Shown here: positions 3,523-58,852 of the stretch, one piece after another | How positions within the stretch are numbered: position 1 is the first letter of the stretch | Layout of the letters: every line of letters starts with the position of its first letter | DNA from: Rufibacter sp. LB8 | GTDB lineage: Bacteria; Bacteroidota; Bacteroidia; Cytophagales; Hymenobacteraceae | DNA length: 64,000 bases | Assembly (NCBI RefSeq): GCF_014876185.1 | Contig: NZ_JADALJ010000002.1 | Coordinates: forward strand, 1-64,000 | Direction of reading: 5' to 3' | Notes under the pieces: generated by a model | Told to the model about the DNA's origin: nothing | Databases searched by the model: none | What the model saw: only the letters and a program-made list of their open reading frames with translations | Made by a program: the position numbers and the translations under genes

Positions 3523-3535
3523 CGATATTGTAAGA

Positions 3536-7532: not shown

Positions 7533-7536
7533 CGCC

Positions 7537-8530: not shown

Positions 8531-8855
8531 GTACCCAATCTTTAGAAGTGGCCAATTATCCTTCCTTCGGCTTTCTTCTATCCTGTAAATTCATAACAGC
8601 TTTGTGCAACTAGGCTATTGGTCCAAAAGACTAATATGACTGCTTGCATTTCAACCTTGCTTTAGCCTCATGCTTTAGGCAAATCCGCATTCGCTGATTC
8701 CTGAATTTATAGCCTCTACTTATCTTATTTTTCTTTACAGTTAAACTGTCACTCAGAGCATCTGAAATGGCTAATCCTTCATTGATTGGCTTTTGGGTGC
8801 TTATGTGTCTGGAAGACTGATTATATGTATTTCAAATTTATAACCCTACCTAATT
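8531..8855 (+). promoter_or_regulatory. Conserved non-coding leader between HYC_CC_PP and lipoprotein genes, copy 1
   Basis: No gene seen in 325 nt. An 18-nt block, CTTCTATCCTGTAAATTC (8575-8592), is identical to 50035-50052 in copy 2 and sits at nearly the same distance from the upstream stop. TAAATTCA (8586-8593) can pair with TGAATTTA (8702-8709); copy 2 has a matching 8-bp pair at corresponding places. This suggests a structured leader or regulatory RNA between the first two genes of the module. Confidence 0.4.
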
Positions 8856-9134
8856 ATGAAATATTTAAAAGTAACAATGGCTGCGGTCTGCCTCGGCTTG
8901 ACTTCATTCTCAGCCTGTAACAGCTCTGGAACAGAACAAAAAGCAACTGAAGGAACAACTTCTGAGGCCCAGGTAGCCGGAGTAACCTACACTTGCCCCA
9001 TGCACCCAGAGGTGGTGAGTGACGTGAAGGGCAAATGCCCTAAGTGTGGCATGTTCCTAGAGGAAGTTAAACCAGGCGAAAAACTGGATTCTGCCGCCGC
9101 AGCCCAACAGCACCACGAAGGAGAACAGCACTAG
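8856..9134 (+). CDS. Lipoprotein with heavy-metal-binding domain (HMBD), copy 1
   Basis: 92 residues. A lipoprotein signal ends at SAC (about residue 21), then a short linker and one HMBD motif, YTCPMHPEVV...GKCPKCGMFL. The CPMHP and CPxCGM pairs form the small metal-binding unit found in Cus-type adaptors and ATPases. The tail is Ala/Gln/His-rich (AAQQHHEGEQH), adding possible ligands. It probably sits on the periplasmic face of a membrane and passes or buffers copper or silver for the pump encoded 113 nt downstream. The copy 2 counterpart is nearly identical from residue 23 on. Confidence 0.85.
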   Translation: MKYLKVTMAAVCLGLTSFSACNSSGTEQKATEGTTSEAQVAGVTYTCPMHPEVVSDVKGKCPKCGMFLEEVKPGEKLDSAAAAQQHHEGEQH

Positions 9135-9176
9135 TCTCTTCTGAATTTCTTACGGTCAAGACTTATTGCTACCGTC

Positions 9177-9212
9177 GTTTTGGGGTTGTCTTAAGTAAAG
9201 CAGCCCCAAAAC
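9177..9212 (+). promoter_or_regulatory. Intercistronic hairpin before cusA, copy 1
   Basis: GTTTTGGGG (9177-9185) pairs with CCCCAAAAC (9204-9212), extended inward by three more pairs including one G-U. No T-run follows, so it is not a standard terminator. Copy 2 has a longer hairpin of similar core sequence in the same gap, arguing for a role in mRNA processing, stability or attenuation. Confidence 0.5.
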
Positions 9213-9247
9213 ACTAAGCCATCAATGCCATATATCTTACTCATTTT

Positions 9248-10528
9248 ATGATTGGCAAATTAATTTCTTTTTCGCTCCGTAACCGGATGATTGTCTTGCT
9301 CATAGCCGCAGGCATGTTTGGGTGGGGAGCTTATTCCGTCACCACCAGCAAGGTAGACGCCATCCCTGATCTTTCTGAGAACCAGGTGATCGTGTTCACC
9401 GAGTGGATGGGTCGAAGCCCTCAAATTATTGAGGACCAGGTGACCTATCCCTTGGTGACCAACCTGCAGGGCATGCCCCAGGTAAAATATGTACGGGGTG
9501 TCTCTATGTTCGGGATGAGCTTCATCTACATCATCTTCGACGACCAGACAGATATCTACTGGGCACGTGAGCGGGTTCTGGAACGGTTAAACTACGCCAA
9601 CCGGCTACTCCCGGAGGGGGCCATACCCACCTTAGGCCCAGATGGCACCGGGGTTGGGCATATCCTTTGGTACACCCTAGATGCCCAAGGCATGGACCTA
9701 GGAGAGCAAAGGGCGGTCCAGGATTGGTACGTGAAGTTCGCCTTGCAGAATGTGCCGGGCGTGAGTGAAATCGCCTCTTTCGGGGGCTTCCAGAAACAGT
9801 ACCAAATTACCGTTGACCCTAACAAACTCACTTACTACAACCTGTCGGTGCCGCAGGTGATGGCCGCCGTGAGGGCCAACAACAATGAGAGCGGAGGGCG
9901 GAAGTTTGAGATGAGCGACATCGGCTACATCATCAAAACCACGGGCTATCTCGAATCCATGGAAGAGATAGAAAGCATTCCCATCACCACCCAAAATACC
10001 ATTCCCGTGAGTGTGCGGGATGTGGCCACCGTGCAGATGACGGGGGAAAGCCGCTTGGGCATCTTTGATCTGAACGGCGAGGGCGAGGCCGTGGGCGGTA
10101 TTGTGGTGATGCGGTACGGCGAGAATGCCGAGGAGGTCATCCGGAACGTCAAAGCCAAGATGGAAGAGGTATCGGCGGGTCTGCCGAAGGGCGTCAAGTT
10201 CAACATTGTCTATGATAGAAGCGGACTCATTAATGAGTCTGTGGATTCCATCAAAAAGACGCTGATAGAGGAGATGCTGGTAGCTTCTGCCATTGTGTTC
10301 CTGTTCCTTTTCCACTGGCGCAGCGCCCTTATTATTATTATTCAATTGCCGCTTTCCATAGCCATCGGGTTCATCCTTTTGAACGCCTTTGGTATTACTT
10401 CCAACATCATGTCCTTAACAGGAATTGCACTGTCTATTGGAGTGATTGTAGATGACGCCATTGTGATGGTAGAAAACGCATACCGGCACCTAGCAGATGC
10501 CCAATTAGAAGAAGAGAACCATGGATAA
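9248..10528 (+). CDS. cusA: CusA/CzcA-type RND efflux pump, N-terminal half, copy 1
   Basis: 426 residues corresponding to about the first 40% of a heavy-metal RND permease (intact relatives are ~1040). It contains TM1 (residues ~12-30), the first large periplasmic region (DAIPDLSENQVIVFTEW, GRSPQIIEDQVTYPL, YWARERVLERLNY) and TM2-TM4. The TM4 motif VIVDDAIVMVEN (about 399-410) carries the Asp residues of the proton relay. It stops in the cytoplasmic loop after TM4. The remaining half starts at 10521 in another frame, overlapping by 8 nt (ATGGATAA). The same split is present in copy 2, so it is not a chance sequencing error. RND pumps of this type export Cu(I)/Ag(I) or divalent metals. Confidence 0.88.
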   Translation: MIGKLISFSLRNRMIVLLIAAGMFGWGAYSVTTSKVDAIPDLSENQVIVFTEWMGRSPQIIEDQVTYPLVTNLQGMPQVKYVRGVSMFGMSFIYIIFDDQTDIYWARERVLERLNYANRLLPEGAIPTLGPDGTGVGHILWYTLDAQGMDLGEQRAVQDWYVKFALQNVPGVSEIASFGGFQKQYQITVDPNKLTYYNLSVPQVMAAVRANNNESGGRKFEMSDIGYIIKTTGYLESMEEIESIPITTQNTIPVSVRDVATVQMTGESRLGIFDLNGEGEAVGGIVVMRYGENAEEVIRNVKAKMEEVSAGLPKGVKFNIVYDRSGLINESVDSIKKTLIEEMLVASAIVFLFLFHWRSALIIIIQLPLSIAIGFILLNAFGITSNIMSLTGIALSIGVIVDDAIVMVENAYRHLADAQLEEENHG

Positions 10529-12413
10529 TAAAAAGCGACTGTCCATTATAGAGAAAGCCTCTAAGCAGGTGGGGCCCAGTGTGTTTTGGAGTACCATTAT
10601 CATTATAACCTCTTTCTTGCCAGTATTCCTTCTAACTGGGCAGGAAGGGCGTCTTTTCAGTCCCTTGGCTTGGACAAAGACCTTTATCCTTATTGTAGAT
10701 GCCTTTGTGGCTATCACGGTTACGCCGGTACTTTTGTCCCTTCTCTTAAAAGGTAAATTTAAACCAGAGAGCGCAAATCCCATCAACCGTGGGCTGGAGA
10801 GATTTTATGGTCCAATCCTACGCTGGTGCCTAAACTGGCGAAAAACCACTATTGGCCTCAATGTCCTCGCTTTGGCGGTGAGTATTCCGATGCTGATGAG
10901 CCTGGGTTCAGAGTTCATGCCTCCCCTGGATGAAAGTTCTATCCTATTTATGCCAGTGACTTTGCCTGACATCTCCAATGCCGAGGCAAAACGCATTCTG
11001 CAAGTGCAGGATAAGATTATCAAGTCAATGCCAGAGGTGGAGCAGGTATTAGGCAAGGCGGGGCGGGCAAATACTGCCACAGACAACTCCCCCATCAGCA
11101 TGATTGAAACCATCATCCTACTGAAGCCTCAGTCAGAGTGGCGGGAGGGCATGACCAAAGCTAAGATCATCGCAGAGTTGGACCAGAAACTACAGATACC
11201 GGGCGTGATCAATGGTTGGACCCAGCCCATCATCAACCGCATTAATATGCTGGCGACGGGAATCAGGACAGACGTGGGGGTTAAAGTATATGGCCAAAGC
11301 CTAGACTCAATCGCAGTGGTATCTGAGAAAGTTCGCAACGCCCTGCAACAGATAGAGGGGGTAAAGGATTTGTATATTGAACCCGTCACCGGTGGGCGCT
11401 ACCTGGAGATACAGACACGGCGTGAGGATTTGGGGCGATACGGCCTTTCCGTCAATGATGTGAACAGCGTGGTGGAGTCTGCCTTGGGAGGTGCCAGTAT
11501 CGGCAACACGATTGAAGGCCGGCAACGCTTCTCTATTAATGTTCGTCTGGCGCAGGAGTACCGCAATAGCATTGACCGCATTCGCCGCATCCCTATTCAG
11601 TCTGGGGTAGCTGGCACTGTGCCACTTTCCGCGGTAGCCGATGTAAAGTTTGTGGACGGACCGCCCATGATCACTTCAGAAAACGCTCAGCTGCGGGGGG
11701 CGGTACTATTTAATGTGCGCGACCGTGATTTAGGCAGCACGGTGCAGGAGGCCATCAAAACCATCAATCAGGAGGTGACGGGAATCCCTAACGGCTACCA
11801 CTTGGAGTGGAGCGGACAGTGGGAAAATCAGATCAGAGCCAACCAGACGTTGAAGATTATCATTCCCCTGGTAGTGCTCATCATCTTCCTGATCCTGTAT
11901 TTCTCCTTCGGTTCTTTCAAGGAGGCTTTGCTAAATCTCATCACCATTCCATTCGCTTTGGTGGGCGGGGTGTTCATCGTGTATTTCTATGGCATCAACC
12001 TGTCCGTGGCAGTGGCGGTGGGATTTATTGCCCTTTTCGGGATGGCTGTGGAAACCGGCATGCTCATGGTTGTGTACCTGAATGAGGCCATGAACGAGTT
12101 GGTGGCGAAAAAGGGAAACTCCAGCCAAACCATCACCAAGCAGGATATAAGGGAGTATGTATTTCAGGGAGCGGCTAAGCGGCTAAGACCTAAAATAATG
12201 ACCGTTTCAGTGTCGCTGTTCGGTTTGATACCTATTCTATGGGCCACTGGGGTAGGCACGGATGTGATGCTACCCATCGTGCTGCCGCTCATCGGCGGCG
12301 TCTTCACTTCTTCCATCCATATCCTGCTGGTAACCCCCGTGGTATTTGAGATGACCAAAGAGTATGAATTGCGAAAACACGGCAAACTAGAGATTTATGA
12401 TGTCAAACATTAG
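10521..12413 (+). CDS. cusA: CusA/CzcA-type RND efflux pump, C-terminal half, copy 1
   Basis: 630 residues starting with MDNKKRLSIIEKAS, which aligns with LDNKTRWQVITDAS of E. coli CusA directly after the TM4 loop, so nothing appears to be missing between the halves. It carries TM5-TM6 (VFWSTIIIITSFLPVFLLTG), the second periplasmic region with metal-site and docking segments, and TM7-TM12 ending in PILWATGVGTDVMLPIVLP. The ATG at 10521 lies inside the end of the upstream half, preceded by the purine-rich AGAAGAAGAGAA, a likely ribosome-binding site for coupled translation. The two chains probably assemble into one pump subunit (inference). Confidence 0.88.
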   Translation: MDNKKRLSIIEKASKQVGPSVFWSTIIIITSFLPVFLLTGQEGRLFSPLAWTKTFILIVDAFVAITVTPVLLSLLLKGKFKPESANPINRGLERFYGPILRWCLNWRKTTIGLNVLALAVSIPMLMSLGSEFMPPLDESSILFMPVTLPDISNAEAKRILQVQDKIIKSMPEVEQVLGKAGRANTATDNSPISMIETIILLKPQSEWREGMTKAKIIAELDQKLQIPGVINGWTQPIINRINMLATGIRTDVGVKVYGQSLDSIAVVSEKVRNALQQIEGVKDLYIEPVTGGRYLEIQTRREDLGRYGLSVNDVNSVVESALGGASIGNTIEGRQRFSINVRLAQEYRNSIDRIRRIPIQSGVAGTVPLSAVADVKFVDGPPMITSENAQLRGAVLFNVRDRDLGSTVQEAIKTINQEVTGIPNGYHLEWSGQWENQIRANQTLKIIIPLVVLIIFLILYFSFGSFKEALLNLITIPFALVGGVFIVYFYGINLSVAVAVGFIALFGMAVETGMLMVVYLNEAMNELVAKKGNSSQTITKQDIREYVFQGAAKRLRPKIMTVSVSLFGLIPILWATGVGTDVMLPIVLPLIGGVFTSSIHILLVTPVVFEMTKEYELRKHGKLEIYDVKH

Positions 12414-13662
12414 AATATACCTGGGTGCCTTGCTCTTGCTGTTGGCTATGTCTGCCAAGGCCCAAACACCAGTTCTGCCACTGGATACGGTGCTGAGCCG
12501 CATATCCCAGAACAACGGCATGCTCAAGGAGATTGAGTTTAGGGCCAAGGCCCAGAACGCCATGGCCAAGGGTGCAAGGAGCCAGATGGCCCCCATGGTG
12601 GGTGCCGGGGTCTTCATGTATCCCTATCCAGGGCAAATGAAAATGACGGGGGAAGAGATGGGAGGGCAGGACGACGCCATGTACATGACGGCGGTGGAGC
12701 AGGAGATCACCAACCCCGCCAAACTGAAAGCCCGTGAGAAGTACCAGCTGTCCAGAGCCGCTATTGAGGAGGCCGGAAGGGATATGACCTTCAACCAACT
12801 CAGGGCGCAGGCCAAGGCTGCCTACTACCAATGGGTAGTGCTGGAGAAGAAACGGTCTGTGCTGGCCGAGAGCCAGCGCATCATGCAGTTCATGCTCAAG
12901 CTGGGAAAGGTTCGTTATCCCTACAACCAGAGTTCCCTGGGTAGTATATACAAAGCAGAGGGAAGGATAGGGGAGGTAGAGAACATGCTCACCATGACCG
13001 ATAGCGAGATTGAGATGAAAAACATCCAGTTGAACATGCTCATGAACCTCCCTCCGGAAAATAGATTCAGGGTGGATACTACCGTGCGCGCACCTGAATT
13101 CATCGTGTTGCCAGACACTGGCGCTTTAAGCGCCGCCCGCAGTGACATACGCCAGATAGACCGAACCATCGAGTCTATGCAGCTTAACCTGCGGCTGGAA
13201 AACCTGCAGCGCAAACCGGATTTCGGGATTCGGTTCGAGAACATGATGCCCCGCGACAGGATGATGCCGCAGTCCTTTACCCTGATGGGCATGGTCTCCA
13301 TTCCCATTGCGCCCTGGTCCTCCAAAATGTACAAGGCAAACGCCTCTGCCATGAACCTGGAGATCCAGGGGATGCATAAAGGAAGGGAGAGTCTTTTGAA
13401 CGAGGCCCAAAACATGGTGGCGAGCATGGCTTTGGAACTGCAGGCGAAACGCACGCAGGTCCAGAACTATGAGAAAAAAATCATCCCGGCCCTGCGGCGC
13501 AACTATGAGACCACGCTCCTAAGTTATGAGCAGAACACAGGCCAATTGCCTTTGGTAATTGATGCATGGGAGGCCTTGAACATGGCCCAGATGGAATACC
13601 TCAATAACCTGGAGCAACTCTACCTAATAGGTGTGAACTATGAAAAAGAACTGGAAAAATAG
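12397..13662 (+). CDS. cusC: TolC-family outer-membrane channel (CusC-like), copy 1
   Basis: 421 residues with a signal peptide (IYLGALLLLLAMSAKAQ) and long helical repeats typical of outer-membrane efflux proteins. Markers include the two OEP repeats and the C-terminal YLNNLEQLYLIGVNYEKE. It would form the outer-membrane duct of the tripartite pump. The start overlaps the upstream pump gene by 17 nt (second ATG at 12400 also possible), and its end overlaps the adaptor gene by 23 nt, so the module is translated as a tightly coupled unit. Relative to copy 2 it has a six-residue insertion near residue 85. Confidence 0.85.
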   Translation: MMSNIRIYLGALLLLLAMSAKAQTPVLPLDTVLSRISQNNGMLKEIEFRAKAQNAMAKGARSQMAPMVGAGVFMYPYPGQMKMTGEEMGGQDDAMYMTAVEQEITNPAKLKAREKYQLSRAAIEEAGRDMTFNQLRAQAKAAYYQWVVLEKKRSVLAESQRIMQFMLKLGKVRYPYNQSSLGSIYKAEGRIGEVENMLTMTDSEIEMKNIQLNMLMNLPPENRFRVDTTVRAPEFIVLPDTGALSAARSDIRQIDRTIESMQLNLRLENLQRKPDFGIRFENMMPRDRMMPQSFTLMGMVSIPIAPWSSKMYKANASAMNLEIQGMHKGRESLLNEAQNMVASMALELQAKRTQVQNYEKKIIPALRRNYETTLLSYEQNTGQLPLVIDAWEALNMAQMEYLNNLEQLYLIGVNYEKELEK

Positions 13663-14968
13663 GTTACTTGGGTTGATTCTCCTGCTGTTGCCCTTCTCCT
13701 TTACCGCCTGTAACAAAGAAAAAGAGGAGGCTACCGGCATGGAATATACCTGCCCTATGCACCCGCAGATCGTGCAGAACAAACCCGGTTCATGCCCCAT
13801 CTGCGGCATGGATCTGGTGGCCAAGCAACCCGCCAATGCACCGGGAGTGGCCGTATCCACTGATTTAGATTATCTGTTGCAGCCATCTAACCAGGCGGTG
13901 GTTTCTTCTGTGCAGACCACGCACCCCGTGCAGAAACCGCTGGAGCAGGAAATCACCATGTCTGGCGTAGTGACCTATGACACGCGCCGGCAGTATATCA
14001 TCCCCGCTAGGTTTGGCGGACGCGTTGAGAAGTTGTACGTGCAGTTTAACTACCAGAAAGTAAGCAAAGGGCAGAGGTTGTATGACATCTACAGCCCAGA
14101 GCTGGTCACTGCCCAGAAGGAACTGCTGTACCTGCTCCAGAACGACCCCAGTAACACGTCCCTCATAGCCGGCGCGCGCCAAAAGCTACGCTTGTTGGGT
14201 GCCACTGATGGGCAGATAAGGCAGTTGGCCAGAACGGGTAAGGAATCTTATACCTTCTCAGTATACAGCCCCTATACCGGCTATGTGTTGGATCCGGCAG
14301 TGACGGCAACCCCAACAGTAGCGCCAGCATCCGCCTCCGCCACAGGTGGTAGCGAAGACGGCATGGGCGGAATGGGCGGTTCAAGCGGCAGTGCCTCTAG
14401 CACAACAAACGCACCCGTTTCGGCTCCCCAAGGATTCGCAATCCGGGAAGGCATGTATGTGACAACCGGGCAAGCACTGCTAAAAGTAATTGACGCCTCC
14501 CAGGTTTGGGCGCAGTTCAACGTGGCCAGCAATGTGGCGGGCCAATTAAAGAAGGGGACTCCCATCACTATTTCCTTTAACCAGGTGGAGGGTAAAACCC
14601 TGCAGTCCTCGGTGCATTTGGTGGAGCCTGTGTATGAGGAGGGGGATAATTTTGTGCAGGTGAGAGCCTTGCTTCCGGCGAAGGGAAATCCGATTCTAAT
14701 CGGCCAGGTCATTACAGGGAAAGTAACCTATGCCACTGGCTCCGCCCTGTGGGTTCCTAAGGATGCAGTTCTGGACCTCGGGGGCCAGTCGGTAGCATTC
14801 CTGAGAATGGACGGAATGTTCAAACCCATTGGTGTGCGCGTGGGGCAGAGGGCGGACGGTCTGTTAGAGATTGTGTCAGGGCTGAAAGTGAGTGACGTGA
14901 TAGCCGCCAATGCGCAGTTCCTGGTGGACAGCGAGAGTTTTATTAGGATAGCAGACACAAACAGATGA
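13640..14968 (+). CDS. cusB: RND efflux periplasmic adaptor (CusB-like) with one HMBD, copy 1
   Basis: 442 residues. A lipoprotein signal ends at TAC (about residue 24), followed by one HMBD (YTCPMHPQIV...GSCPICGMDL, about 36-62), then a membrane-fusion-protein body: barrel-sandwich segments (ITMSGVVTYDTRRQYIIPAR), helical hairpin (SPELVTAQKELLYLL) and beta-barrel domain. A Gly/Ser/Met-rich insertion (about 235-255) interrupts the lipoyl-like part. Adaptors of this type join pump and channel and, in CusB, bind Cu(I)/Ag(I). It overlaps the next adaptor gene by 4 nt (ATGA). Confidence 0.88.
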   Translation: MKKNWKNRLLGLILLLLPFSFTACNKEKEEATGMEYTCPMHPQIVQNKPGSCPICGMDLVAKQPANAPGVAVSTDLDYLLQPSNQAVVSSVQTTHPVQKPLEQEITMSGVVTYDTRRQYIIPARFGGRVEKLYVQFNYQKVSKGQRLYDIYSPELVTAQKELLYLLQNDPSNTSLIAGARQKLRLLGATDGQIRQLARTGKESYTFSVYSPYTGYVLDPAVTATPTVAPASASATGGSEDGMGGMGGSSGSASSTTNAPVSAPQGFAIREGMYVTTGQALLKVIDASQVWAQFNVASNVAGQLKKGTPITISFNQVEGKTLQSSVHLVEPVYEEGDNFVQVRALLPAKGNPILIGQVITGKVTYATGSALWVPKDAVLDLGGQSVAFLRMDGMFKPIGVRVGQRADGLLEIVSGLKVSDVIAANAQFLVDSESFIRIADTNR

Positions 14969-16296
14969 GACATATAAAAAACCTATTCACCGTTTTACTG
15001 GCAACTGTTTTTTTGATGGCCTGCACCAAGACGGACGAGCATGCCCACGCAACGGAAGATACCAGCTACACCTGTCCCATGCACCCCCAAATTGTGGAAG
15101 GCGAGCCTGGTTCTTGCCCCATCTGTGGCATGGACCTAGTTTTGGTCCAAAAACAGAAAAAGGAGCCAGAAACGGCCAGTGCCTTTACCTGTCCCATGCA
15201 CCCGCAGATAGTGCAGGACAAAGCAGGCTCATGCCCCATTTGCGGGATGGACCTGGTACCCGTGAAAAAGCAAAGCACCAAAGGTGAGGAAGTCAGTATC
15301 ATGCTGAGTGAAAGCCAGATCCAATTGGGCAACATCACCACGCAAACCTTGCGGCAGGGACAGGTAGGAAGCAATACGGTGCTTACGGGCAGGCTGGTGG
15401 TAGACCAGACGCAGGCCGACCTTATCAGCAGTCGGGCCGCTGGCCGCATAGAGAGACTTTATGTGAAAGAAACTGGTCAGCCCATCCGCAAGGGACAGCC
15501 CCTCTATGACTTATACAGCGAGACCCTGCTCACATTGGAACAGGAATACCTGCTGGCCTTGGACCAGGTGAAGGCGTTCCCTAGCGAGAGGCAGTTTGCC
15601 TCCATCCTGGATGCCGCCAAAAGAAAGCTTCTCTTAACCGGTCTCACTAATGCCCAGATCAGCCGCATTGCACAAACCCGTAAACTAGACGCCCGCATCA
15701 CCTTCGTAGCACCCAGTTCAGGTACTGTCACGGAGATAGCCGCCGCAGAAGGCGTGTATGTGGCCGAAGGAAGTCCGCTTTACCGCATAAGCCGGTTCAA
15801 CACCATTTGGGCGGAGGCCGAATTGTACGCCGGTGAAGCCGGAGCGCTAAAGATAGGGACTCCGGTAGACGTCATCGTAGCCGGAAGCAACATGCCCATC
15901 AAGACAAAGATCTCTTTTATCAACCCAGAGTTTAGGCAGAACAGCCAAGTGGTGATTGCCCGGGCTTCGGTTCCTAACCCAGGAGGAGGCCTGATCCCAG
16001 GCACCCAGGCCACCATGACGGTAGGTACCCAGGTGAGAGAAGCGTTAACACTGCCGCTGGATGCCGTGATCCGGGATTCCAAAGGTGCGCACGTCTGGGT
16101 GAAGATCGGGGAGAACACCTTTAGCCCCAGAAGGGTTGAGCTTGGGGAGGAAAGCGCGAACCGGGTGGCCATTGCCAGCGGCCTGCAATCCAGAGACACC
16201 GTGGTAGTGACGGGCGCCTATCTGCTGTACAGCGAATATGTACTCAAGCAAGGGGCAGACCCGATGGCGGGACTTAACCATCAGTCAAATCAATAA
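14965..16296 (+). CDS. cusB: Second RND efflux adaptor with two tandem HMBDs, copy 1
   Basis: 443 residues. A lipoprotein signal ends at MAC (about residue 20), then two HMBD units in series (YTCPMHPQIV...CPICGMDL, repeated about 45 residues later), then a complete membrane-fusion-protein body (NTVLTGRLVVDQTQADLISS, LEQEYLLALDQ, GTVTEIAAAEGVYVAEGSPL). It is not a duplicate of the preceding adaptor: the two share only family-level similarity outside the HMBDs. Both adaptors are conserved side by side in copy 2, so a mixed adaptor ring or stage-specific roles is plausible (inference). Confidence 0.88.
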   Translation: MRHIKNLFTVLLATVFLMACTKTDEHAHATEDTSYTCPMHPQIVEGEPGSCPICGMDLVLVQKQKKEPETASAFTCPMHPQIVQDKAGSCPICGMDLVPVKKQSTKGEEVSIMLSESQIQLGNITTQTLRQGQVGSNTVLTGRLVVDQTQADLISSRAAGRIERLYVKETGQPIRKGQPLYDLYSETLLTLEQEYLLALDQVKAFPSERQFASILDAAKRKLLLTGLTNAQISRIAQTRKLDARITFVAPSSGTVTEIAAAEGVYVAEGSPLYRISRFNTIWAEAELYAGEAGALKIGTPVDVIVAGSNMPIKTKISFINPEFRQNSQVVIARASVPNPGGGLIPGTQATMTVGTQVREALTLPLDAVIRDSKGAHVWVKIGENTFSPRRVELGEESANRVAIASGLQSRDTVVVTGAYLLYSEYVLKQGADPMAGLNHQSNQ

Positions 16297-16307
16297 ATCT
16301 ACTCTTA

Positions 16308-17384
16308 ATGATACACAGAACTTTTAAACTGACACTTACAGTAGCTCTTTTACTAACATTCACCGCCTGCAACCTCCATACAGAGGCAGACATGGATGGT
16401 ATGGAAGAGGACATGGACGGCATGGACTTGAACATTGACTACCCTGCCGCCTTTGTGGTAAACGGGGAGTCCAATGACGTGGACGTTATTAATCTGAATG
16501 ACCTCACCCACAAAGATCATATAAGTCTGAATGGGGCAAAGTTCCCACACCATATCAATCTGAGTCCAGACAAGACAAAGCTAGCGGTGGCCATCACCAG
16601 CACTGACCTGAGCGGTGGGCATGACGCTGGCGGGATGGATGGTATGGAAGGCTTCAGGGTTATCGTTCTGAATAGCTACTCCGGCAAGATCGAAAAGGAG
16701 ATCATGCTTTCCAAAATGCCACATAACGGTGCTTTCAATGCAGACGGTTCTGAGCTGTGGATTGCGCAGGAGGATGAGGTGAAAAGCCAGGTATTGGTTT
16801 ATAATACTGGTAATTGGACTTTAAAGAATATCATCAGCGTCGGGAAAGGGCTGTCAGAAGTTACTTTCTCAACTGACGGCTCAAAAGTGTTCGCATCCAA
16901 TACGACTGACGCCACCGTGTCTATCATCAACCCAGGCACTAAAATGGTGATGGGTACGGTGCCGGTGGGTAAGGATCCGGTTGGGGCTTGGCCAGCGGCC
17001 AACGGGCATGTATACGTGGACAATGAGACAGACCAGACCGTCACCGAGATAAATGTGGCCACCGGGGCAGTTACCGAGACGATTAACCTAGGGTTTAAGC
17101 CTGGCTATGTGGCCTATCACCCTTCCAGCCAAGAGCTATGGGTGAGTGACGCCACCAATGGCAGGGTCTTGTTTTACAAGGAGGAAAACAGCCTATGGAC
17201 TCTCAAAGGGAATATAATGACCGGGGCTGATGCACACGCCATTGCTTTTTCTCCAGAAGGCTCCACCGCCTATGTCACCAATCAGGGGGCGGGCACCGTC
17301 TCTGTTATCAATGTTTCTGACCATAGTGTACGCTCCTCCGTTTCGGTAGGGAAAAAACCAAACGGAATAGTACTCCGGCCATAG
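16308..17384 (+). CDS. YncE-like beta-propeller lipoprotein, copy 1
   Basis: 358 residues. A lipoprotein signal ends at TAC, followed by an acidic Met-rich stretch (MDGMEEDMDGMDLN) that could bind metal. The rest is a string of ~40-residue repeats with the pattern ...VxVINxxTxxVxxTIxVGxxPxxV..., as in YncE/YVTN propellers (for example SVINVSDHSVRSSVSVGKKP). Such proteins are usually periplasmic binding scaffolds without catalytic activity. It is retained in copy 2 immediately after the adaptors, pointing to a real role in the efflux module. Confidence 0.78.
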   Translation: MIHRTFKLTLTVALLLTFTACNLHTEADMDGMEEDMDGMDLNIDYPAAFVVNGESNDVDVINLNDLTHKDHISLNGAKFPHHINLSPDKTKLAVAITSTDLSGGHDAGGMDGMEGFRVIVLNSYSGKIEKEIMLSKMPHNGAFNADGSELWIAQEDEVKSQVLVYNTGNWTLKNIISVGKGLSEVTFSTDGSKVFASNTTDATVSIINPGTKMVMGTVPVGKDPVGAWPAANGHVYVDNETDQTVTEINVATGAVTETINLGFKPGYVAYHPSSQELWVSDATNGRVLFYKEENSLWTLKGNIMTGADAHAIAFSPEGSTAYVTNQGAGTVSVINVSDHSVRSSVSVGKKPNGIVLRP

Positions 17385-50725: not shown

Positions 50726-52006
50726 ATGATTGGCAAATTAATTTCCTTTTCCCTCCGCAACCGGATGATTGTCCTGCTTATTGCGGCAGGCATGTTTGGT
50801 TGGGGAGTCTATTCAGTCACCACCAGTAAGGTAGACGCCATCCCTGACCTCTCAGAGAACCAGGTGATTGTGTTCACAGAGTGGATGGGCCGCAGCCCGC
50901 AGATCATAGAGGACCAGGTGACTTACCCGCTGGTGACCAACCTGCAGGGCATGCCGCAGGTCAAGTATGTGCGGGGCGTCTCCATGTTCGGGATGAGCTT
51001 CATCTACATCATCTTTGATGATAAAACAGATATCTACTGGGCGCGGGAACGGGTGCTGGAGCGCCTCAACTACGCCAACCGCCTTTTGCCGGAGGGGGCA
51101 ATTCCTACTTTAGGGCCAGACGGTACCGGTGTGGGGCACATTCTCTGGTACACCCTGGACGCCTCAGGTATGGACCTTGGCGAGCAGCGCGCGGTGCAGG
51201 ACTGGTATGTGAAGTTCGCGCTGCAGAACGTGCCGGGTGTGAGTGAGATCGCCTCCTTCGGTGGTTTTCAGAAGCAGTACCAAATCACCATTGACCCCAA
51301 TAAACTCACCTATTACAACCTATCCGTGCCGCAGGTGATGGCCGCCGTGCGGGCCAATAACAATGAGAGCGGTGGCCGCAAGTTTGAGATGAGCGACATC
51401 GGCTACATCATCAAGACAACGGGCTATCTGCAGTCCATGGAGGAGATAGAGAGCATTCCCATCACCACCCAAAATACCATACCCGTGAGTGTGCGTGACG
51501 TGGCCACCGTGCAGATGACGGGGGAAAGCCGCCTGGGCATTTTTGACCTGAACGGCGAGGGTGAGGCCGTGGGCGGTATTGTGGTGATGCGCTACGGTGA
51601 GAATGCCGAGGAGGTGATCAGGAACGTGAAAGCCAAGATGGAAGAGGTCTCAGCGGGTCTGCCGAAGGGGGTCAAGTTCAACATCGTCTATGACCGCAGC
51701 GGGCTCATCAATGAATCTGTGGATTCTATCAAAACTACATTGATAGAAGAGATGCTGGTGGCCTCTGCCATTGTGTTCTTGTTCCTATTCCATTGGCGCA
51801 GTGCCTTGATCATCATCATTCAACTGCCGCTTTCCATTGCCATCGGCTTTATTCTGTTGAATGCCTTTGACATCACCTCCAACATTATGTCCCTGACTGG
51901 GATCGCCCTGTCTATCGGGGTGATTGTAGACGATGCCATTGTGATGGTAGAAAACGCATATCGGCACCTAGCCGATGCCCAAATAGAAGAAGAGAACCAT
52001 GGATAA
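50726..52006 (+). CDS. cusA: CusA/CzcA-type RND efflux pump, N-terminal half, copy 2
   Basis: 426 residues, differing from copy 1 at only about eight positions (for example GWGVYS, DDKTD, LDASG, AFDITS), while many third codon positions differ. Ends EEENHG at the same place after TM4, overlapping the second half by 8 nt. Low protein change with high silent change means both halves are under selection to stay functional. Confidence 0.88.
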   Translation: MIGKLISFSLRNRMIVLLIAAGMFGWGVYSVTTSKVDAIPDLSENQVIVFTEWMGRSPQIIEDQVTYPLVTNLQGMPQVKYVRGVSMFGMSFIYIIFDDKTDIYWARERVLERLNYANRLLPEGAIPTLGPDGTGVGHILWYTLDASGMDLGEQRAVQDWYVKFALQNVPGVSEIASFGGFQKQYQITIDPNKLTYYNLSVPQVMAAVRANNNESGGRKFEMSDIGYIIKTTGYLQSMEEIESIPITTQNTIPVSVRDVATVQMTGESRLGIFDLNGEGEAVGGIVVMRYGENAEEVIRNVKAKMEEVSAGLPKGVKFNIVYDRSGLINESVDSIKTTLIEEMLVASAIVFLFLFHWRSALIIIIQLPLSIAIGFILLNAFDITSNIMSLTGIALSIGVIVDDAIVMVENAYRHLADAQIEEENHG

Positions 52007-53891
52007 TAAGAAACGACTGTCCATCATAGAGAAAGCCTCCAAGCAGGTAGGCCCCAGTGTGTTTTGGAGCACCATCATCATTATTACCTCCTTCTTGCCG
52101 GTGTTCCTTTTGACCGGGCAAGAGGGACGCCTTTTCAGCCCATTGGCCTGGACCAAGACATTTATCCTCATTGTAGATGCCTTTGTGGCCATCACAGTGA
52201 CTCCTGTGCTGCTGTCACTCCTACTCAAAGGCAAGTTCAAGCCCGAGAGCGCCAACCCCGTTAACCGCGCCTTGGAACGGGTGTACTCGCCTATTCTGCG
52301 CTGGTGCCTTAAATGGCGCAAAACCACCATTGGAGTAAATATTCTGGCTTTGGCGGTGAGTATTCCTATGCTTTTGAGCCTGGGGTCTGAGTTCATGCCG
52401 CCCTTGGATGAGAGCTCCATCCTGTTCATGCCCGTAACCCTGCCAGACATCTCCAACGCCGAGGCCAAGCGTATTCTGCAGGTGCAGGACAAGATTATAA
52501 AATCAACGCCGGAGGTAGAACAAGTGTTGGGCAAGGCCGGGCGGGCCAGCACGGCCACGGACAACTCGCCCATCAGCATGATTGAGACCATCATCCTGCT
52601 GAAGCCTCAGTCAGAATGGCGCGAGGGGATGACCAAGGCCAAAATAATCGCGGAACTGGACCAGAAACTGCAGATCCCTGGCGTGATCAACGGCTGGACC
52701 CAGCCCATCATCAACCGCATCAACATGCTGGCCACGGGCATCAGGACAGACGTGGGCGTGAAGGTGTATGGCCAGAGCCTGGATTCTATTGCGGCGGTTT
52801 CTGAGAAAGTTCGCAATGCATTGCAACAGGTGGAAGGCGTGAAAGACCTGTACATTGAGCCGGTGACCGGTGGACGTTACCTGGAGATCCAGACCCGCCG
52901 GGAGGATCTGGGGCGCTACGGTCTTTCCGTCAATGATGTGAACAGCGTGGTGGAGTCTGCCCTCGGTGGGGCCAGCATCGGCAATACCATTGAAGGAAGG
53001 CGACGTTTCTCCATCAATGTGCGTCTGGCGCAGGAGTACCGCAATAGTTTGGATCGCATCCGCCGCATCCCCATTCAATCCAGTACCAACGGAACGGTGC
53101 CGCTTTCAGCGGTGGCTGATGTGAAATTTGTGGACGGACCGCCTATGATTGCCTCAGAGAACGCCCAACTGCGGGGCGCGGTGCTATTCAATGTGCGTGA
53201 CCGCGATCTGGGCAGCACGGTGCAGGAGGCCATCAAAACCATTAACCAGGAGGTGACCGGAATCCCCAATGGCTATCATTTGGAGTGGAGCGGACAGTGG
53301 GAAAACCAGATCAGGGCCAACAAGACCCTAAAGATTATCATCCCGCTGGTGGTTCTCATCATCTTCCTTATCCTTTATTTTTCTTTTGGGTCTTTCAAAG
53401 AGGCGCTGCTCAACCTGGTCACCATCCCATTCGCTCTGGTGGGTGGGGTGTTCATTGTGTATTTCTACGGCATCAATCTGTCCGTGGCGGTGGCGGTGGG
53501 CTTCATTGCCCTGTTTGGGATGGCGGTAGAGACGGGTATGCTTATGGTGGTGTACCTGAATGAGGCCATGAACGAACTTGTGGCTAAAAAGGGTAACTCC
53601 AGTGAGACCATCACCAAGCAGGATATAAGAGAGTATGTGTTCCAGGGGGCGGCCAAGCGCCTACGACCCAAGATCATGACGGTTTCTGTGTCCCTTTTCG
53701 GCCTGATTCCCATTCTGTGGGCCACCGGGGTGGGTACTGACGTGATGTTACCAATTGTGCTTCCTCTTATAGGTGGTGTTTTCACCTCCTCCATTCATAT
53801 CCTGCTGGTGACTCCTGTGGTGTTTGAAATGACCAAGGAATATGAACTCAGGAAACACGGCAAATTAGATATTTATGATGTCAAACATTAA
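51999..53891 (+). CDS. cusA: CusA/CzcA-type RND efflux pump, C-terminal half, copy 2
   Basis: 630 residues, start MDNKKRLSII as in copy 1, preceded by AGAAGAAGAGAACC. Differs from copy 1 by scattered conservative changes (for example PVNRALERVYSPIL, SSTNGTVP). Codons just after the start differ between copies (AAAAAG versus AAGAAA), so no shared slippery heptamer is preserved at the junction; coupled re-initiation is the better explanation. Confidence 0.88.
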   Translation: MDNKKRLSIIEKASKQVGPSVFWSTIIIITSFLPVFLLTGQEGRLFSPLAWTKTFILIVDAFVAITVTPVLLSLLLKGKFKPESANPVNRALERVYSPILRWCLKWRKTTIGVNILALAVSIPMLLSLGSEFMPPLDESSILFMPVTLPDISNAEAKRILQVQDKIIKSTPEVEQVLGKAGRASTATDNSPISMIETIILLKPQSEWREGMTKAKIIAELDQKLQIPGVINGWTQPIINRINMLATGIRTDVGVKVYGQSLDSIAAVSEKVRNALQQVEGVKDLYIEPVTGGRYLEIQTRREDLGRYGLSVNDVNSVVESALGGASIGNTIEGRRRFSINVRLAQEYRNSLDRIRRIPIQSSTNGTVPLSAVADVKFVDGPPMIASENAQLRGAVLFNVRDRDLGSTVQEAIKTINQEVTGIPNGYHLEWSGQWENQIRANKTLKIIIPLVVLIIFLILYFSFGSFKEALLNLVTIPFALVGGVFIVYFYGINLSVAVAVGFIALFGMAVETGMLMVVYLNEAMNELVAKKGNSSETITKQDIREYVFQGAAKRLRPKIMTVSVSLFGLIPILWATGVGTDVMLPIVLPLIGGVFTSSIHILLVTPVVFEMTKEYELRKHGKLDIYDVKH

Positions 53892-55122
53892 AGTATACCT
53901 GAGTGCCCTGCTGCTGTTGCTGGGAGCTTCTGCCAAGGCCCAAACACCGGTTCTTCCACTGGATACAGTCCTTAATCGCATCTCCCAGAACAACGGCATG
54001 CTCAAGGAGATTGAGTTCCGGGCGAAGGCGCAAAATGCCATGGCAAAGGGAGCCAGAAGCCAGATGGCACCCATGGTGGGCGCCGGGGTCTTTATGTACC
54101 CGTACCCGGGCCAGATGAAAATGGAGGAGGATGACGCCATGTACATGACGGCCGTGGAGCAGGACATCACCAACCCAGCCAAACTGAAAGCCCGGGAGAA
54201 ATACCAGCTCTCCAGGGCGGCCATTGAGGAGGCAGGCCGTGACATGACCTTCAACCAACTCAGGGCGCAGGCCAAAACCGCCTATTACCAGTGGGTGGTG
54301 CTGGAGAAGAAGAAGGCCGTGCTGGCCGAGAGCCAGCGCATCATGCAGTTCATGCTCAAGCTGGGCAAGGTGCGCTACCCCTACAACCAGAGCTCCCTGG
54401 GCAGTATCTACAAAGCCGAGGGACGGATAGGGGAGGTGGAGAACATGCTCACCATGACCAACAGTGAGATTGAGATGAAGAACATCCAATTGAACATGCT
54501 GATGAACCTGCCTCCGGAAAACAGATTCAGGGTAGATACCACCGTGAGCGCACCTGAACTTACCGTGCTACCTGACACCGCCTCTCTGAGCGCCGCCCGC
54601 AGTGACGTGCGCCAAATAGACCGTACCATAGAGTCTATGCAGTTGAACCTGCGACTGGAGAAAATCCAGCGCAAGCCAGATTTCGGGATACGTTTTGAGA
54701 ACATGATGCCGCGTGACAGGATGATGCCCCAGTCGTTCACCCTCATGGGCATGGTCTCTATTCCCATTGCGCCCTGGTCCTCCAAAATGTACAAGGCCAA
54801 TGCCACTGCCATGAACCTGGAAATACAGGGTATGCAGAAGGGCCGGGAGGCCCTGTTGAACGAGGCCCAAAACATGGTGGCCAGCATGGCCCTGGAACTA
54901 CAGGCAAAGAAGACCCAGGTCCAGAATTATGAGAAGAAAATCATTCCGGCCCTGCGGCGCAACTACGAAACCACGCTCCTGAGCTATGAGCAGAACACGG
55001 GCCAGTTGCCGCTGGTGATTGACGCCTGGGAAGCCCTGAACATGGCCCAGATTGAATATCTCAATAACCTTGAGCAACTCTACCTAATAGGTGTGAATTA
55101 TGAAAAAGAACTGGAAAAATAG
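53875..55122 (+). CDS. cusC: TolC-family outer-membrane channel (CusC-like), copy 2
   Basis: 415 residues; same signal peptide and repeat layout as copy 1, but shorter by six residues near position 80 (KMEEDDAMYM against KMTGEEMGGQDDAMYM). Overlaps upstream gene by 17 nt and downstream gene by 23 nt, exactly as copy 1. Confidence 0.85.
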   Translation: MMSNIKVYLSALLLLLGASAKAQTPVLPLDTVLNRISQNNGMLKEIEFRAKAQNAMAKGARSQMAPMVGAGVFMYPYPGQMKMEEDDAMYMTAVEQDITNPAKLKAREKYQLSRAAIEEAGRDMTFNQLRAQAKTAYYQWVVLEKKKAVLAESQRIMQFMLKLGKVRYPYNQSSLGSIYKAEGRIGEVENMLTMTNSEIEMKNIQLNMLMNLPPENRFRVDTTVSAPELTVLPDTASLSAARSDVRQIDRTIESMQLNLRLEKIQRKPDFGIRFENMMPRDRMMPQSFTLMGMVSIPIAPWSSKMYKANATAMNLEIQGMQKGREALLNEAQNMVASMALELQAKKTQVQNYEKKIIPALRRNYETTLLSYEQNTGQLPLVIDAWEALNMAQIEYLNNLEQLYLIGVNYEKELEK

Positions 55123-56437
55123 GCTGATTGGGTTTCTGATTCTGCTGTTACCCTTCTCCTTAACCGCTTGTAATGACCAGGCTGAAAAGGGAGATGAGGC
55201 GCATGCGATGGAATACACCTGCCCCATGCACCCCCAGATTGTACAGGACAAACCCGGATCCTGCCCCATCTGCGGCATGGACCTGGTGGCCAAGCAACCC
55301 GCCAATGCACCGGGAGTGGCCGTATCCACAGATTTAGATTATTTGTTACAGCCCTCCAACCAGGCCGTGGTTTCCGCTGTGCAAACCACGCACCCGATGC
55401 AGAAGCCGCTGGAGCAGGAAATCACAATGTCTGGGGTGGTGACCTATGACACCCGTCGGCAGTACATCATCCCAGCCCGGTTCGCAGGGCGGATAGAGAA
55501 GCTGTACGTGCAGTTCAACTACCAAGCGGTGCGCAAAGGCCAGAAGCTGTATGACATCTACAGCCCCGAACTGGTCACCGCCCAGAAAGAGCTTCTCTAT
55601 CTGCTCAAAAACGACCCGGGCAACTCGGCGCTCATTGCCGGCGCGCGCCAAAAATTACGTCTTCTGGGTGCCACAGAGGGACAGATAAATCAGCTTGCAC
55701 GCACGGGGAGAGAGTCCTATACCTTCTCAGTCTTTAGCCCTTACTCGGGGTATGTGCTGGATCCGTCGGTGACGGCAACCCCAACAGTAGCGCCAGCCGC
55801 CGCCTCTGCCACAGGCGGTAGCGATGACGGTATGGGCGGCATGGGCGGTTCTAGCGGCGGTGCTTCAGGCACTATAACCACACCCGCCTCGGCCCCCCAA
55901 GGATTCGCCATCCGGGAAGGCATGTATGTGACCACGGGGCAGGCACTGCTAAAAGTAATTGACGCCTCCCAGGTTTGGGCGCAGTTCAACGTGGCCAGCA
56001 ATGTGGCGGGCCAATTAAAGAAGGGGACTCCCATCACTATTTCCTTTAACCAGGTGGAGGGTAAAACCCTGCAGTCCTCGGTGCATTTGGTGGAGCCTGT
56101 GTATGAGGAGGGGGAGAACTTCGCACAGATAAGGGCCTTGCTTCCGGCAAAGGGGAATCCAATTCTAATCGGCCAGGTCATCACCGGGAAAGTAACCTAT
56201 AGCACTGGCTCCGCCCTTTGGGTTCCCAAAGATGCTGTGTTGGACCTTGGGGGCCAGTCGGTAGCATTCCTGAAAATGGACGGAGTGTTCAAACCCATTG
56301 GTGTGCGCGTGGGGCAGCGGTCAGGCGGTCAGGTAGAGATTGTGTCAGGGCTGAAAGCCAGTGACGTGATAGCGGCCAACGCGCAGTTCCTGGTGGACAG
56401 TGAGAGTTTTATTAGGGTACCAGACACAAGCAGATGA
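55100..56437 (+). CDS. cusB: RND efflux periplasmic adaptor (CusB-like) with one HMBD, copy 2
   Basis: 445 residues, organised as copy 1. The segment between lipobox and HMBD differs (NDQAEKGDEAHAM). A 173-bp tract, 55943-56115, is base-for-base identical to 14474-14646 in copy 1, while flanking codons differ at silent sites; this points to recent gene conversion. Overlaps the next gene by 4 nt. Confidence 0.88.
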   Translation: MKKNWKNRLIGFLILLLPFSLTACNDQAEKGDEAHAMEYTCPMHPQIVQDKPGSCPICGMDLVAKQPANAPGVAVSTDLDYLLQPSNQAVVSAVQTTHPMQKPLEQEITMSGVVTYDTRRQYIIPARFAGRIEKLYVQFNYQAVRKGQKLYDIYSPELVTAQKELLYLLKNDPGNSALIAGARQKLRLLGATEGQINQLARTGRESYTFSVFSPYSGYVLDPSVTATPTVAPAAASATGGSDDGMGGMGGSSGGASGTITTPASAPQGFAIREGMYVTTGQALLKVIDASQVWAQFNVASNVAGQLKKGTPITISFNQVEGKTLQSSVHLVEPVYEEGENFAQIRALLPAKGNPILIGQVITGKVTYSTGSALWVPKDAVLDLGGQSVAFLKMDGVFKPIGVRVGQRSGGQVEIVSGLKASDVIAANAQFLVDSESFIRVPDTSR

Positions 56438-57765
56438 GACATATAAAGAACCTATTCACCGTTTTACTGGCAACGCTCTTTCTGATGGCCTGCGCCAAGA
56501 CCGACGAGCATGCCCACGCTGGGGAGGACGCCAGCTACACCTGCCCCATGCACCCCCAAATTGTGGAAGGCGAGCCTGGTTCTTGCCCTATTTGTGGCAT
56601 GGACCTGGTTTTGGTCCAGAAACAGAAAAAGGAGCCAGAAACGGCCAGTGCCTTTACCTGCCCCATGCACCCACAGATAGTGGAGGACAAAGCCGGCTCA
56701 TGCCCCATCTGCGGGATGGACCTGGTACCCGTGAAAAAACAAAGCAACAAAGGCGAGGAAGTCAGTATCATGCTGAGCGAAAACCAGATCCAACTGGGCA
56801 ACATCACCACGCAAACCATCCGGCAGGGACAGGTGGGAAGCAGCACGGTGCTTACGGGCAGGCTGGTGGTGGATCAGACGCAGGCCGACCTTATTAGCAG
56901 TCGGGCCGCTGGCCGCATAGAGAGACTGTATGTAAAGGAAACGGGACAATCCATCCGTAAGGGGCAACCCCTCTATGACTTATACAGTGAGACCCTTCTC
57001 ACATTGGAACAGGAATACCTGCTGGCCTTGGACCAGGTGAAGGCGTTCCCCGGCGAGAGGCAGTTTGCCTCTATTCTGGACGCCGCCAAAAGAAAGCTCC
57101 TCTTGACCGGGCTCACCAATGCTCAGGTCAACCGGGTCGCCCGCACCCGGAAGTTGGACGCGCGTATCACATTTGTCTCCCCGTCCTCTGGCACGGTAAC
57201 AGAGATAGCTTCCGCCGAAGGTATTTATGTGGCTGAGGGAAGCCCGCTTTACCGGATCACCCGCTTCAGCTCCATCTGGGTAGAGGCGGAACTTTATGCG
57301 CAGGAGGCAGACCAGATGAAGGTGGGAACGCCTGTTGAAGTCTCTGTTCCCGGAAATGCGGCACCTATCAAAACCAGGATCTCCTTCATCAACCCAGAGT
57401 TCAGGCAAAACAGTCAGGTGGTGGTTGCACGGGCCTCCATCCCCAATCCGCAGGGGCGGTTGATTCCAGGTACGCAGGCCACCATGACCCTCGGGGCTCC
57501 CGTGAAGCAGGCTATGACCCTGCCTTTGGATGCCGTGATCCGGGATTCCAAAGGTGCGCACGTTTGGGTGAAGATCGGGGAAAATACATTTAGCCCCAGA
57601 AGGGTGGAGCTTGGGGAGGAAAGTTCAAACCGGGTAGCCATTGCCAGTGGGCTACAACCAAGAGACACCGTGGTAGTGACGGGCGCCTATCTGCTGTACA
57701 GCGAATATGTACTAAAGCAAGGGGCAGACCCGATGGCTGGACACAACCATCAATCTAATCAATAA
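56434..57765 (+). CDS. cusB: Second RND efflux adaptor with two tandem HMBDs, copy 2
   Basis: 443 residues, two HMBDs then the adaptor body, as in copy 1. Divergence is concentrated in the middle of the protein (about residues 280-370, for example VEAELYAQEADQMKVGTPVEVSVPGN versus the copy 1 version), the region that would touch pump or channel, while the ends are nearly identical. Confidence 0.88.
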   Translation: MRHIKNLFTVLLATLFLMACAKTDEHAHAGEDASYTCPMHPQIVEGEPGSCPICGMDLVLVQKQKKEPETASAFTCPMHPQIVEDKAGSCPICGMDLVPVKKQSNKGEEVSIMLSENQIQLGNITTQTIRQGQVGSSTVLTGRLVVDQTQADLISSRAAGRIERLYVKETGQSIRKGQPLYDLYSETLLTLEQEYLLALDQVKAFPGERQFASILDAAKRKLLLTGLTNAQVNRVARTRKLDARITFVSPSSGTVTEIASAEGIYVAEGSPLYRITRFSSIWVEAELYAQEADQMKVGTPVEVSVPGNAAPIKTRISFINPEFRQNSQVVVARASIPNPQGRLIPGTQATMTLGAPVKQAMTLPLDAVIRDSKGAHVWVKIGENTFSPRRVELGEESSNRVAIASGLQPRDTVVVTGAYLLYSEYVLKQGADPMAGHNHQSNQ

Positions 57766-57775
57766 ACGTAATCTT

Positions 57776-58852
57776 ATGCTGTACAGAACATTTAAATTGC
57801 CACTTATCACTTCTTTCTTAATGGTGTTCACCGCCTGTAACCTTCATACAGAGGATGATATGGGAGACATGGAGGAAGATATGGACGGGATGGAATTGAA
57901 CATCAACTACCCGGCCGCCTTCGTGGTGAACGGGGAGTCCAATGATGTGGATGTCATTAATTTGAATGACCTAACCCACAAAGACCATATCAGCCTTAAC
58001 GGAGCCACTTTTCCGCACCACATCAACATGAGCCCGGACAGAACCAAGCTGGCCGTGGCCATTACCAGCACTGACCTGAGCGCCGGGCATGACGGCGGAG
58101 GCATGGACGGGATGAGCGGCCTGAAGGTCATTGTGCTCAACAGCTACACCGGCAAGATTGAGAAGGAGATTGTGCTCCCTAAGATGCCGCATAACGCCGC
58201 CTTTAACGCAGACGGTTCTGAGCTGTGGGTCTCACAGGAGGATGAGATGAGGAGCCAAGTACTGGTATATAACACTGGGAATTGGGCGTTGAAGAACACC
58301 ATCTTGGTGGGGAAGGGATTGTCTGAGGTTACGTTCTCAACTGACGGCTCAAAAGTGTTTGCTGCCAATACGGCTGACGCCACCGTCTCCATCATCAGCC
58401 CAGCCACTAAGATGGTGATGGGTACAGTGCCGGTGGGCAAGGATCCGGTTGGAGCTTGGCCAGCTGCCAATGGACATGTGTACGTGGACAATGAGACAGA
58501 CCAGACCGTCACCGAGATAAATGTAGCGACCGGAGCGGTCACCGAGACAATTAACCTAGGCTTTAAACCGGGATACGTGGCCTACCATCCTGACCAGCAA
58601 GAGCTATGGGTGAGTGATGCCACCAATGGTAAGGTGGTCTACTACAAGAAGGCAAACGGCCTTTGGGCCAGGCAAGGAGCCATCACCACGGGCGCAGATG
58701 CCCACGCCATAGCCTTTTCCCCAGATGGCACAATAGCCTATGTCACAAACCAGGGGGCCGGCACAGTTTCCGTTATCAATGTTTCTGAACATAGTGTACG
58801 CACCGCCATTTCGGTTGGGAAAAAACCGAACGGAATAGTTCTCCGACCATAG
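57776..58852 (+). CDS. YncE-like beta-propeller lipoprotein, copy 2
   Basis: 358 residues, same length as copy 1 with an acidic Met-rich start after the lipobox (MGDMEEDMDGMELN) and the same propeller repeats ending SVISVGKKPNGIVLRP-like. Conserved synteny supports a function inside the efflux module. Confidence 0.78.
   Translation: MLYRTFKLPLITSFLMVFTACNLHTEDDMGDMEEDMDGMELNINYPAAFVVNGESNDVDVINLNDLTHKDHISLNGATFPHHINMSPDRTKLAVAITSTDLSAGHDGGGMDGMSGLKVIVLNSYTGKIEKEIVLPKMPHNAAFNADGSELWVSQEDEMRSQVLVYNTGNWALKNTILVGKGLSEVTFSTDGSKVFAANTADATVSIISPATKMVMGTVPVGKDPVGAWPAANGHVYVDNETDQTVTEINVATGAVTETINLGFKPGYVAYHPDQQELWVSDATNGKVVYYKKANGLWARQGAITTGADAHAIAFSPDGTIAYVTNQGAGTVSVINVSEHSVRTAISVGKKPNGIVLRP

Follow-up and report, generated by a model that had tools for sequence, protein, structure and literature searches.

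A probable two-chain variant of the CusA-type heavy-metal efflux permease, broken between TM4 and TM5, in Rufibacter and other Bacteroidota

Efflux permeases of the resistance-nodulation-division (RND) superfamily of the CusA and AcrB kind are known as single-chain proteins with 12 transmembrane helices (TMs). More than one RND polypeptide can occur in one pump, as in the heteromeric multidrug transporter MdtB/MdtC, but each of its chains is a full-length permease. An RND-type membrane unit can also consist of two chains, as in SecD and SecF, for which the available passages of one paper describe a 2 x 6 TM arrangement (PMC8277102). Here we analysed a stretch of 64,000 nucleotides (nt) from Rufibacter sp. 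LB8 (contig NZ_JADALJ010000002.1, positions 1 to 64,000; hereafter the window), which is the start of a 155-kb contig in a genome of two contigs. The window carries, in two copies, a pair of overlapping genes that together resemble E. coli CusA, the heavy-metal efflux RND (HME-RND) permease of CusCBA, over nearly its whole length. CusA is one polypeptide, whereas here the permease is divided over two genes, with the break between CusA residues 422 and 430. Each chain is thus part of one permease, unlike those of MdtB/MdtC. SecD and SecF divide between two 6-TM repeats, whereas the split unit in the window is a heavy-metal pump cut inside the first repeat, between TM4 and TM5 (4 + 8 TMs). We put a probability of about 0.88 on the gene pair encoding two polypeptides of one CusA-type permease that arose by one early fission between TM4 and TM5. 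The most fitting description is a two-chain CusA/HME-RND permease variant that is old and common in Bacteroidota.

In the first copy, the N half (426 amino acids (aa); TM1, first porter domain and TM2-4) lies at 9248..10528 on the + strand, as do the other genes of the two pump cassettes, and the C half (630 aa; TM5-12, second porter domain and methionine triad) lies at 10521..12413. The 8 nt shared by the two genes, ATGGATAA (10521..10528), hold the start of the C half and the stop of the N half. The second copy is arranged identically, with an N half of 426 aa at 50726..52006, the overlap ATGGATAA at 51999..52006 and a C half of 630 aa at 51999..53891. A first-pass annotation, made from the letters of the window, had described two permease copies of 426 + 630 codons with an 8-nt overlap, and the reading-frame coordinates and the overlap agree with it. 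It had also placed the break in the TM4-TM5 loop with no sequence lost between the halves. In predicted structures the last N-half helix spans residues 387-425 and the first C-half helix residues 3-31, corresponding to TM4 and TM5; the TM4-TM5 loop is presumably cytoplasmic, as in RND topology. Aligned to E. coli CusA, the N half corresponds to residues 2-422 and the C half to residues 430-1038 (chain positions 9-429 and 437-1045, the chain index being the residue number + 7 in the 1,054-residue chains, consistent with the entry numbering 430-1043). Only a few CusA loop residues are uncovered, and the N-half tail fills these. The N half also matched PF00873, and the pair jointly covers the whole of the 1051-position TIGR00914 profile (N half 1-429, C half 432-1038).

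The two copies have diverged mainly at silent positions. The N halves differ at 8 of 426 residues and at 149 silent codons, with a ratio of nonsynonymous to synonymous substitution (dN/dS) of 0.016, bearing out the earlier estimate of about eight residues and many silent codons. For the C halves, 22 of 630 residues and 279 silent codons differ (dN/dS 0.015, with a dS of 1.49 that is near saturation). Among the six genes compared between the cassettes, the two permease halves show the strongest constraint; dN/dS for the outer-membrane factor, the adaptors and the beta-propeller protein ranges from 0.043 to 0.117. A third split copy is present on the same contig. Its C half (contig positions 72337-74211) is 59% identical to the window copy, and its N half lies directly upstream, ending 9 nt before the C-half ATG. 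No copy of the window outer-membrane factor was found near this third copy (20-kb stretch L014, E <= 1e-6).

According to the available passages of PMC8092243, export by CusA needs D405, E939 and K984, which form a proton relay, and the Cu(I) site consists of M573, M623 and M672 with E625; the methionine pairs M391-M1009, M410-M501 and M403-M486 are also described there. The relay equivalents in the window are divided between the genes, with D402 (CusA D405) in the N chain and E511 and K558 (CusA E939 and K984) in the C chain. The C chain also contains the complete Met site and its acidic neighbour, M144, M194, M243 and E196 (CusA M573, M623, M672 and E625). Among the aligned relatives, D402 is conserved in 45 of 45 N chains, and E511, M144, M194, E196 and M243 in 44 of 44 C chains. 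The CusA pair M391-M1009 corresponds to M388 in the N chain (44/45) and M583 in the C chain (43/44). With the proton relay and the M388/M583 residues divided in this way, each of these two features would span the two chains. Only the N-chain member of M410-M501 is present in the window (M407; L72), and neither member of M403-M486 (I400; L57). The likeness to E. coli CusA extends to the neighbourhood, where genes for a CusB-type adaptor and a TolC-type outer-membrane channel adjoin the permease pair.

To see how far the split extends, other genomes were scanned, as the first-pass annotation had proposed, and the outcome was strongly positive. In the family scan (E <= 1e-150), all 82 matches, from 63 of 120 genomes, were half-length (open frames of 630-752 aa) and none was full length. 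Matches were found in 53 of 291 genomes in the order scan and in 155 of 395 in the phylum scan (both E <= 1e-130). Among the matches listed in these two scans that covered nearly the whole C half, those with at least 56% identity were half-length, except in three genomes (G284, G304 and G190; frames of 1051-1056 aa), and nearly all of those with at most 54% identity were full length. Several full-length pumps in the phylum scan (e.g. in G690, G419, G531 and G606) were 56-59% identical over residues ~10-370 only and are not in the trees described below. In a scan of named genomes, the best 80 of at least 586 confirmed matches comprised 68 split pumps, 10 fused pumps and 2 cut by a contig end. 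The genera were Rufibacter, Adhaeribacter, Pontibacter, Larkinella, Runella, Cytophaga, Chitinophaga, Niastella, Pedobacter, Mucilaginibacter, Sphingobacterium, Flavobacterium, Chryseobacterium, Epilithonimonas and others, from the NCBI classes Cytophagia, Chitinophagia, Sphingobacteriia, Flavobacteriia, Saprospiria and others. The protein of locus L018, from a genome of the window's genus (G048), is identical to that of L098 from Rufibacter immobilis. A half-length C frame in G709 (L225, G709:C77, 1088-2932), with 43% identity, starts inside TM5, and the 1,087 nt before it contain no N half; this apparently truncated gene was left out of the counts. A short frame in G679 is cut by a contig end. 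The first-pass annotation had proposed that selection kept the split form after the duplication in the window. This is true but understated: since relatives in several Bacteroidota classes have the split, it predates the duplication.

The junctions between the halves were compared in 174 distinct loci, which remained from 207 locus records after removal of identical C proteins. These loci are the best rows of each scan together with hand-chosen regions. They comprise 150 split loci with halves within 1.5 kb of each other, 19 fused loci and 5 without a nearby N half. Three of these five are at contig ends. In the other two (G549 and G564) the C half is followed by the outer-membrane factor, two adaptors and, 3.6-3.9 kb downstream, the N half (L218, C half 1504-3420 and N half 7327-8595; L219, reverse complement, C half 2482-4440 and N half 8006-9271). 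The two reordered genomes belong to the window's phylum and to another class. In the 150 split loci, the halves overlap at one extreme and are separated by 662 nt at the other. The ATG closest to the N stop overlaps that stop in 58 loci (24 by 4 nt and 20 by 8 nt) and follows it by 0-15 nt in 56, by 16-60 nt in 14, by 61-200 nt in 11 and by >200 nt in 10; one locus lacks such an ATG. Two of these values need care: at L164 the N-half alignment runs through a stop and the gap (-29) is misread, and at L052 the chosen ATG belongs to an inserted gene. A whole gene lies between the halves in 8 loci. In five of them (L031, L036, L046, L048 and L050) it encodes, exactly between the halves, a four-helix-bundle protein of the 23S rRNA intervening-sequence family (PF05635; matched with the L031 protein, to which the other four are 67-76% identical). 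In the remaining three (L052, L059 and L060) it encodes a methyltransferase-type protein (matched with the L059 protein, to which those of L052 and L060 are 80 and 83% identical). At the Pontibacter-type junctions L039, L040, L043 and L044, a short inverted-repeat element lies between the halves, in most of them GTCATTTCGA ... TCGAGATGACA.

These junctions bear on whether the two frames are translated as one protein. If the ribosome slipped near ATGGATAA by programmed frameshifting, one long protein would be made and the two open reading frames would be no more than reading frames. In both window copies the C frame is indeed open for 4 codons upstream of its ATG, where a +1 shift would give a continuous protein, and all 20 loci with an 8-nt overlap would in principle permit the same shift. 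However, the bases past the overlap differ between the window copies (TAAAAAG vs TAAGAAA), so that no slippery run is common to them, as had been pointed out before. Across the 150 split loci, the C half has no conserved phase with respect to the N half (phase 1 in 66, phase 2 in 63 and phase 0 in 21). In 33 loci a stop located past the N stop closes the C frame, and in 10 more the N stop itself does so. Neither a conserved frame relation nor consistently overlapping open frames were therefore found. Where a gene is inserted or the halves are reordered, no frameshift can explain the locus, and the halves are separate genes there. Frameshifting was accordingly rejected as the general mechanism, as was read-through, and we regard a single frameshifted product as very improbable. 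The earlier preference for re-initiation over frameshifting is supported in the window by the ATG that sits in the 8-nt overlap, and in the class at large by the varied phases, closed C frames, inserted genes and reordered halves; re-initiation itself would be the most likely route at the window junction. The sequences show that, in many lineages, the split form consists of two intact open reading frames that strong purifying selection maintains, while their spacing, frame and even order vary.

The loop at the break differs between split and fused pumps. The stretch between the TM4-end and TM5-start motifs is 21 residues long in 18 of the 19 fused pumps and 19 residues in the other. The nearest full-length relatives found outside the split clade, L092-L097 from the same phylum and L169-L177 from Geobacter, Desulfuromonadaceae, Chlorobiaceae, Ignavibacteria, Nitrospirae and one deltaproteobacterial metagenome-assembled genome (MAG), are 52-54% identical to the window pump in the C half. 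They differ from it in having one frame (1049-1051 aa for L092-L097) and a constant 21-residue TM4-TM5 stretch (15/15). For split pumps, the N tail and C head were counted in 148 of the 150 loci (one locus lacked an ATG in the stretch searched and another a motif match), with the start set at the ATG closest to the N stop. Together they have a median of 40 residues and exceed 21 in 144 of 148 loci. An N-terminal extension of 8 or more residues is present on the C chain in 93 of the 148 and is net positive in 85 (for example MNWFKRLFKK, MKKLFNKLKRK and MTFIKKIFSK). Many split relatives therefore differ from E. coli CusA in this basic N-terminal peptide as well; the window copies have 12 + 14 residues and no C-chain extension. 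We propose that the basic extension may be a membrane-surface element gained after the fission.

The history of the split was examined in trees of the N and C halves, each made by a quick method from 80 chosen rows, with fused pumps of other groups as the outgroup of the C-half tree. In the C-half tree the split pumps form a clade with a support of 100 at its base, inside which lie four fused sequences. One of these, L131 (a Saprospiraceae MAG), stands beside split Runella with a support of 99. The other three, L178, L067 and L070, stand beside three split sequences, including one from a Pedobacter, with a weak support of 83; they belong to family f15, which includes Cytophaga (via L141/L183). 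Three changes between fused and split are needed in this tree, and its starred branches force three. The N-half tree, which lacks L175 and L192 and has long branches for L177, L091 and L151, places the fused forms similarly (L131 with two Runella, support 99; L178/L067/L070 with a Pedobacter pair, support 72) and also has three changes, two of them forced. Because both trees are quick, the order inside the split clade is uncertain. One fission followed by two re-fusions is the simplest history that fits.

Genes that are separate may also function separately, and in two genomes the halves are not neighbours. The two chains might then be independent transporters, or one of them a regulatory half-pump, rather than parts of one protomer. 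Against this, the chains together cover one CusA and each carries part of the relay, the fused forms take similar positions in the N and C trees, and the non-adjacent pairs still lie within one operon-like cluster. The two re-fusions nested among split pumps are a further sign that the halves belong together. We consider independent chains unlikely, and the N- and C-half proteins very probably assemble into one pump.

Several observations weigh against a two-chain CusA-type permease of this kind. K558 (CusA K984) is kept in 38 of 44 relatives, and thus not every member has the known relay. It is replaced by L, I or V in L155, L157, L160, L162, L166 and L200, five of which belong to a second clade; the proton relay is possibly altered in these relatives. 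Neither chain alone reaches the NCBIfam cut-off of TIGR00914 (467.8 and 626.6 vs 701.45 bits). Such scores are expected because each chain is a half. As neither reaches the cut-off, we class the pair as a two-chain variant and do not count either chain by itself as a family member. The single-chain predicted structures are of moderate confidence (mean predicted local distance difference test, pLDDT, 68.2 and 68.8). The loci compared are related rather than independent and are not a random sample. Lastly, two plasmid records (Pontibacter actiniarum and Spirosoma linguale) list nothing at the position of the halves, though both halves are present as sequence (L223 5001-8204 and L224 5001-8364).

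These two records are what could be said for a sequencing or assembly error, or for a recently broken pseudogene. The halves were perhaps annotated there as a frameshifted pseudogene; the feature table omits pseudogenes. In the plasmid records of Adhaeribacter, Fibrella and Haliscomenobacter, the pair is annotated as two adjacent 'efflux RND transporter permease subunit' genes. An error or pseudogene is refuted by the spread and conservation of the split: it recurs in many independent assemblies, including complete plasmid records, dN/dS is low in both halves, and functional residues are invariant. Long single-frame RND permeases (frames of 1,034-1,490 aa) are present elsewhere in the Rufibacter sp. 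LB8 genome, which indicates that this genome is not generally broken. The varied phases, closed C frames, inserted genes and moved N halves exclude assembly error, like frameshifting, as a general explanation, and we give such an artefact next to no credence.

Collectively, these results suggest how a two-chain CusA-type permease may have arisen and may work. An ancestral single gene would have been broken once, at the TM4-TM5 loop, in an early relative of these Bacteroidota pumps, and both pieces would have been kept. In the window, the C chain would most likely be made by termination-coupled re-initiation at the overlapping ATG. The N chain, with TM1-4 and the first porter domain, would insert separately from the C chain, with TM5-12 and the second porter domain. 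The two would then pair into one protomer, whose proton relay would combine D402 from the N chain with E511 and K558 from the C chain. Three N/C pairs would then form a trimer that works with the adjacent TolC-type and CusB-type proteins. More tentatively, and with less than even odds in our estimate, the single ancient fission might have produced an obligate two-chain RND pump (3 + 3 chains) across Bacteroidota. In such a pump the basic, often aromatic N-terminal peptide that the freed C chain acquired in many lineages, at what had been the TM4-TM5 loop, might anchor the chain or regulate pairing, and relay assembly might be a control point that single-chain RND pumps lack.

The permease pair is part of a cassette that occurs twice in the window (8856-17384 and 50255-58852), ~41.5 kb apart. 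In copy 1, profile matches identified a small protein with a heavy-metal-binding domain (HMBD) directly upstream of the pump (8856..9134), a TolC-type outer-membrane factor (PF02321; 12397..13662), a CusB-type adaptor with an HMBD (adaptor 1; 13640..14968), a second CusB-type adaptor with two HMBD stretches (adaptor 2; 14965..16296) and, after the adaptors, a YncE-type beta-propeller protein (16308..17384). By comparison with copy 1, copy 2 has the outer-membrane factor at 53875..55122, adaptor 1 at 55100..56437, adaptor 2 at 56434..57765 and the beta-propeller protein at 57776..58852. The adaptors and propeller are more diverged in protein sequence between the cassettes than are the permease halves. 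The TolC-type, CusB-type and HMBD genes around the pump point to Cu(I)/Ag(I) as its likely substrate and to export as its likely job. The stretch between the cassettes encodes two multicopper oxidases and two P-type ATPases, of which one ATPase has an HMA domain (23563-25893, 38327-40822, 41362-43467 and 43537-45804), and it looks like a copper/silver resistance region. Genes of the conjugative-transposon type (DUF4138, TraM) are present near the window start, at 2599-4885.

The papers listed by our literature searches included no description of a split heavy-metal RND permease; most subscription journals were outside their coverage, and absence from print is therefore not shown. The available passages of a study of czcA expression by PCR fragments in Chryseobacterium (PMC6532875) make no mention of two genes. 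In Bacteroidota genomes, annotation by length or by family cut-off can miss such pumps or call them pseudogenes. The split pumps also offer a natural tool for the study of RND assembly, as one chain can be tagged, removed or depleted independently of the other, and naturally fused pumps can be set beside their split relatives. A stable and widespread two-gene version indicates that assembly of the permease in trans is possible.

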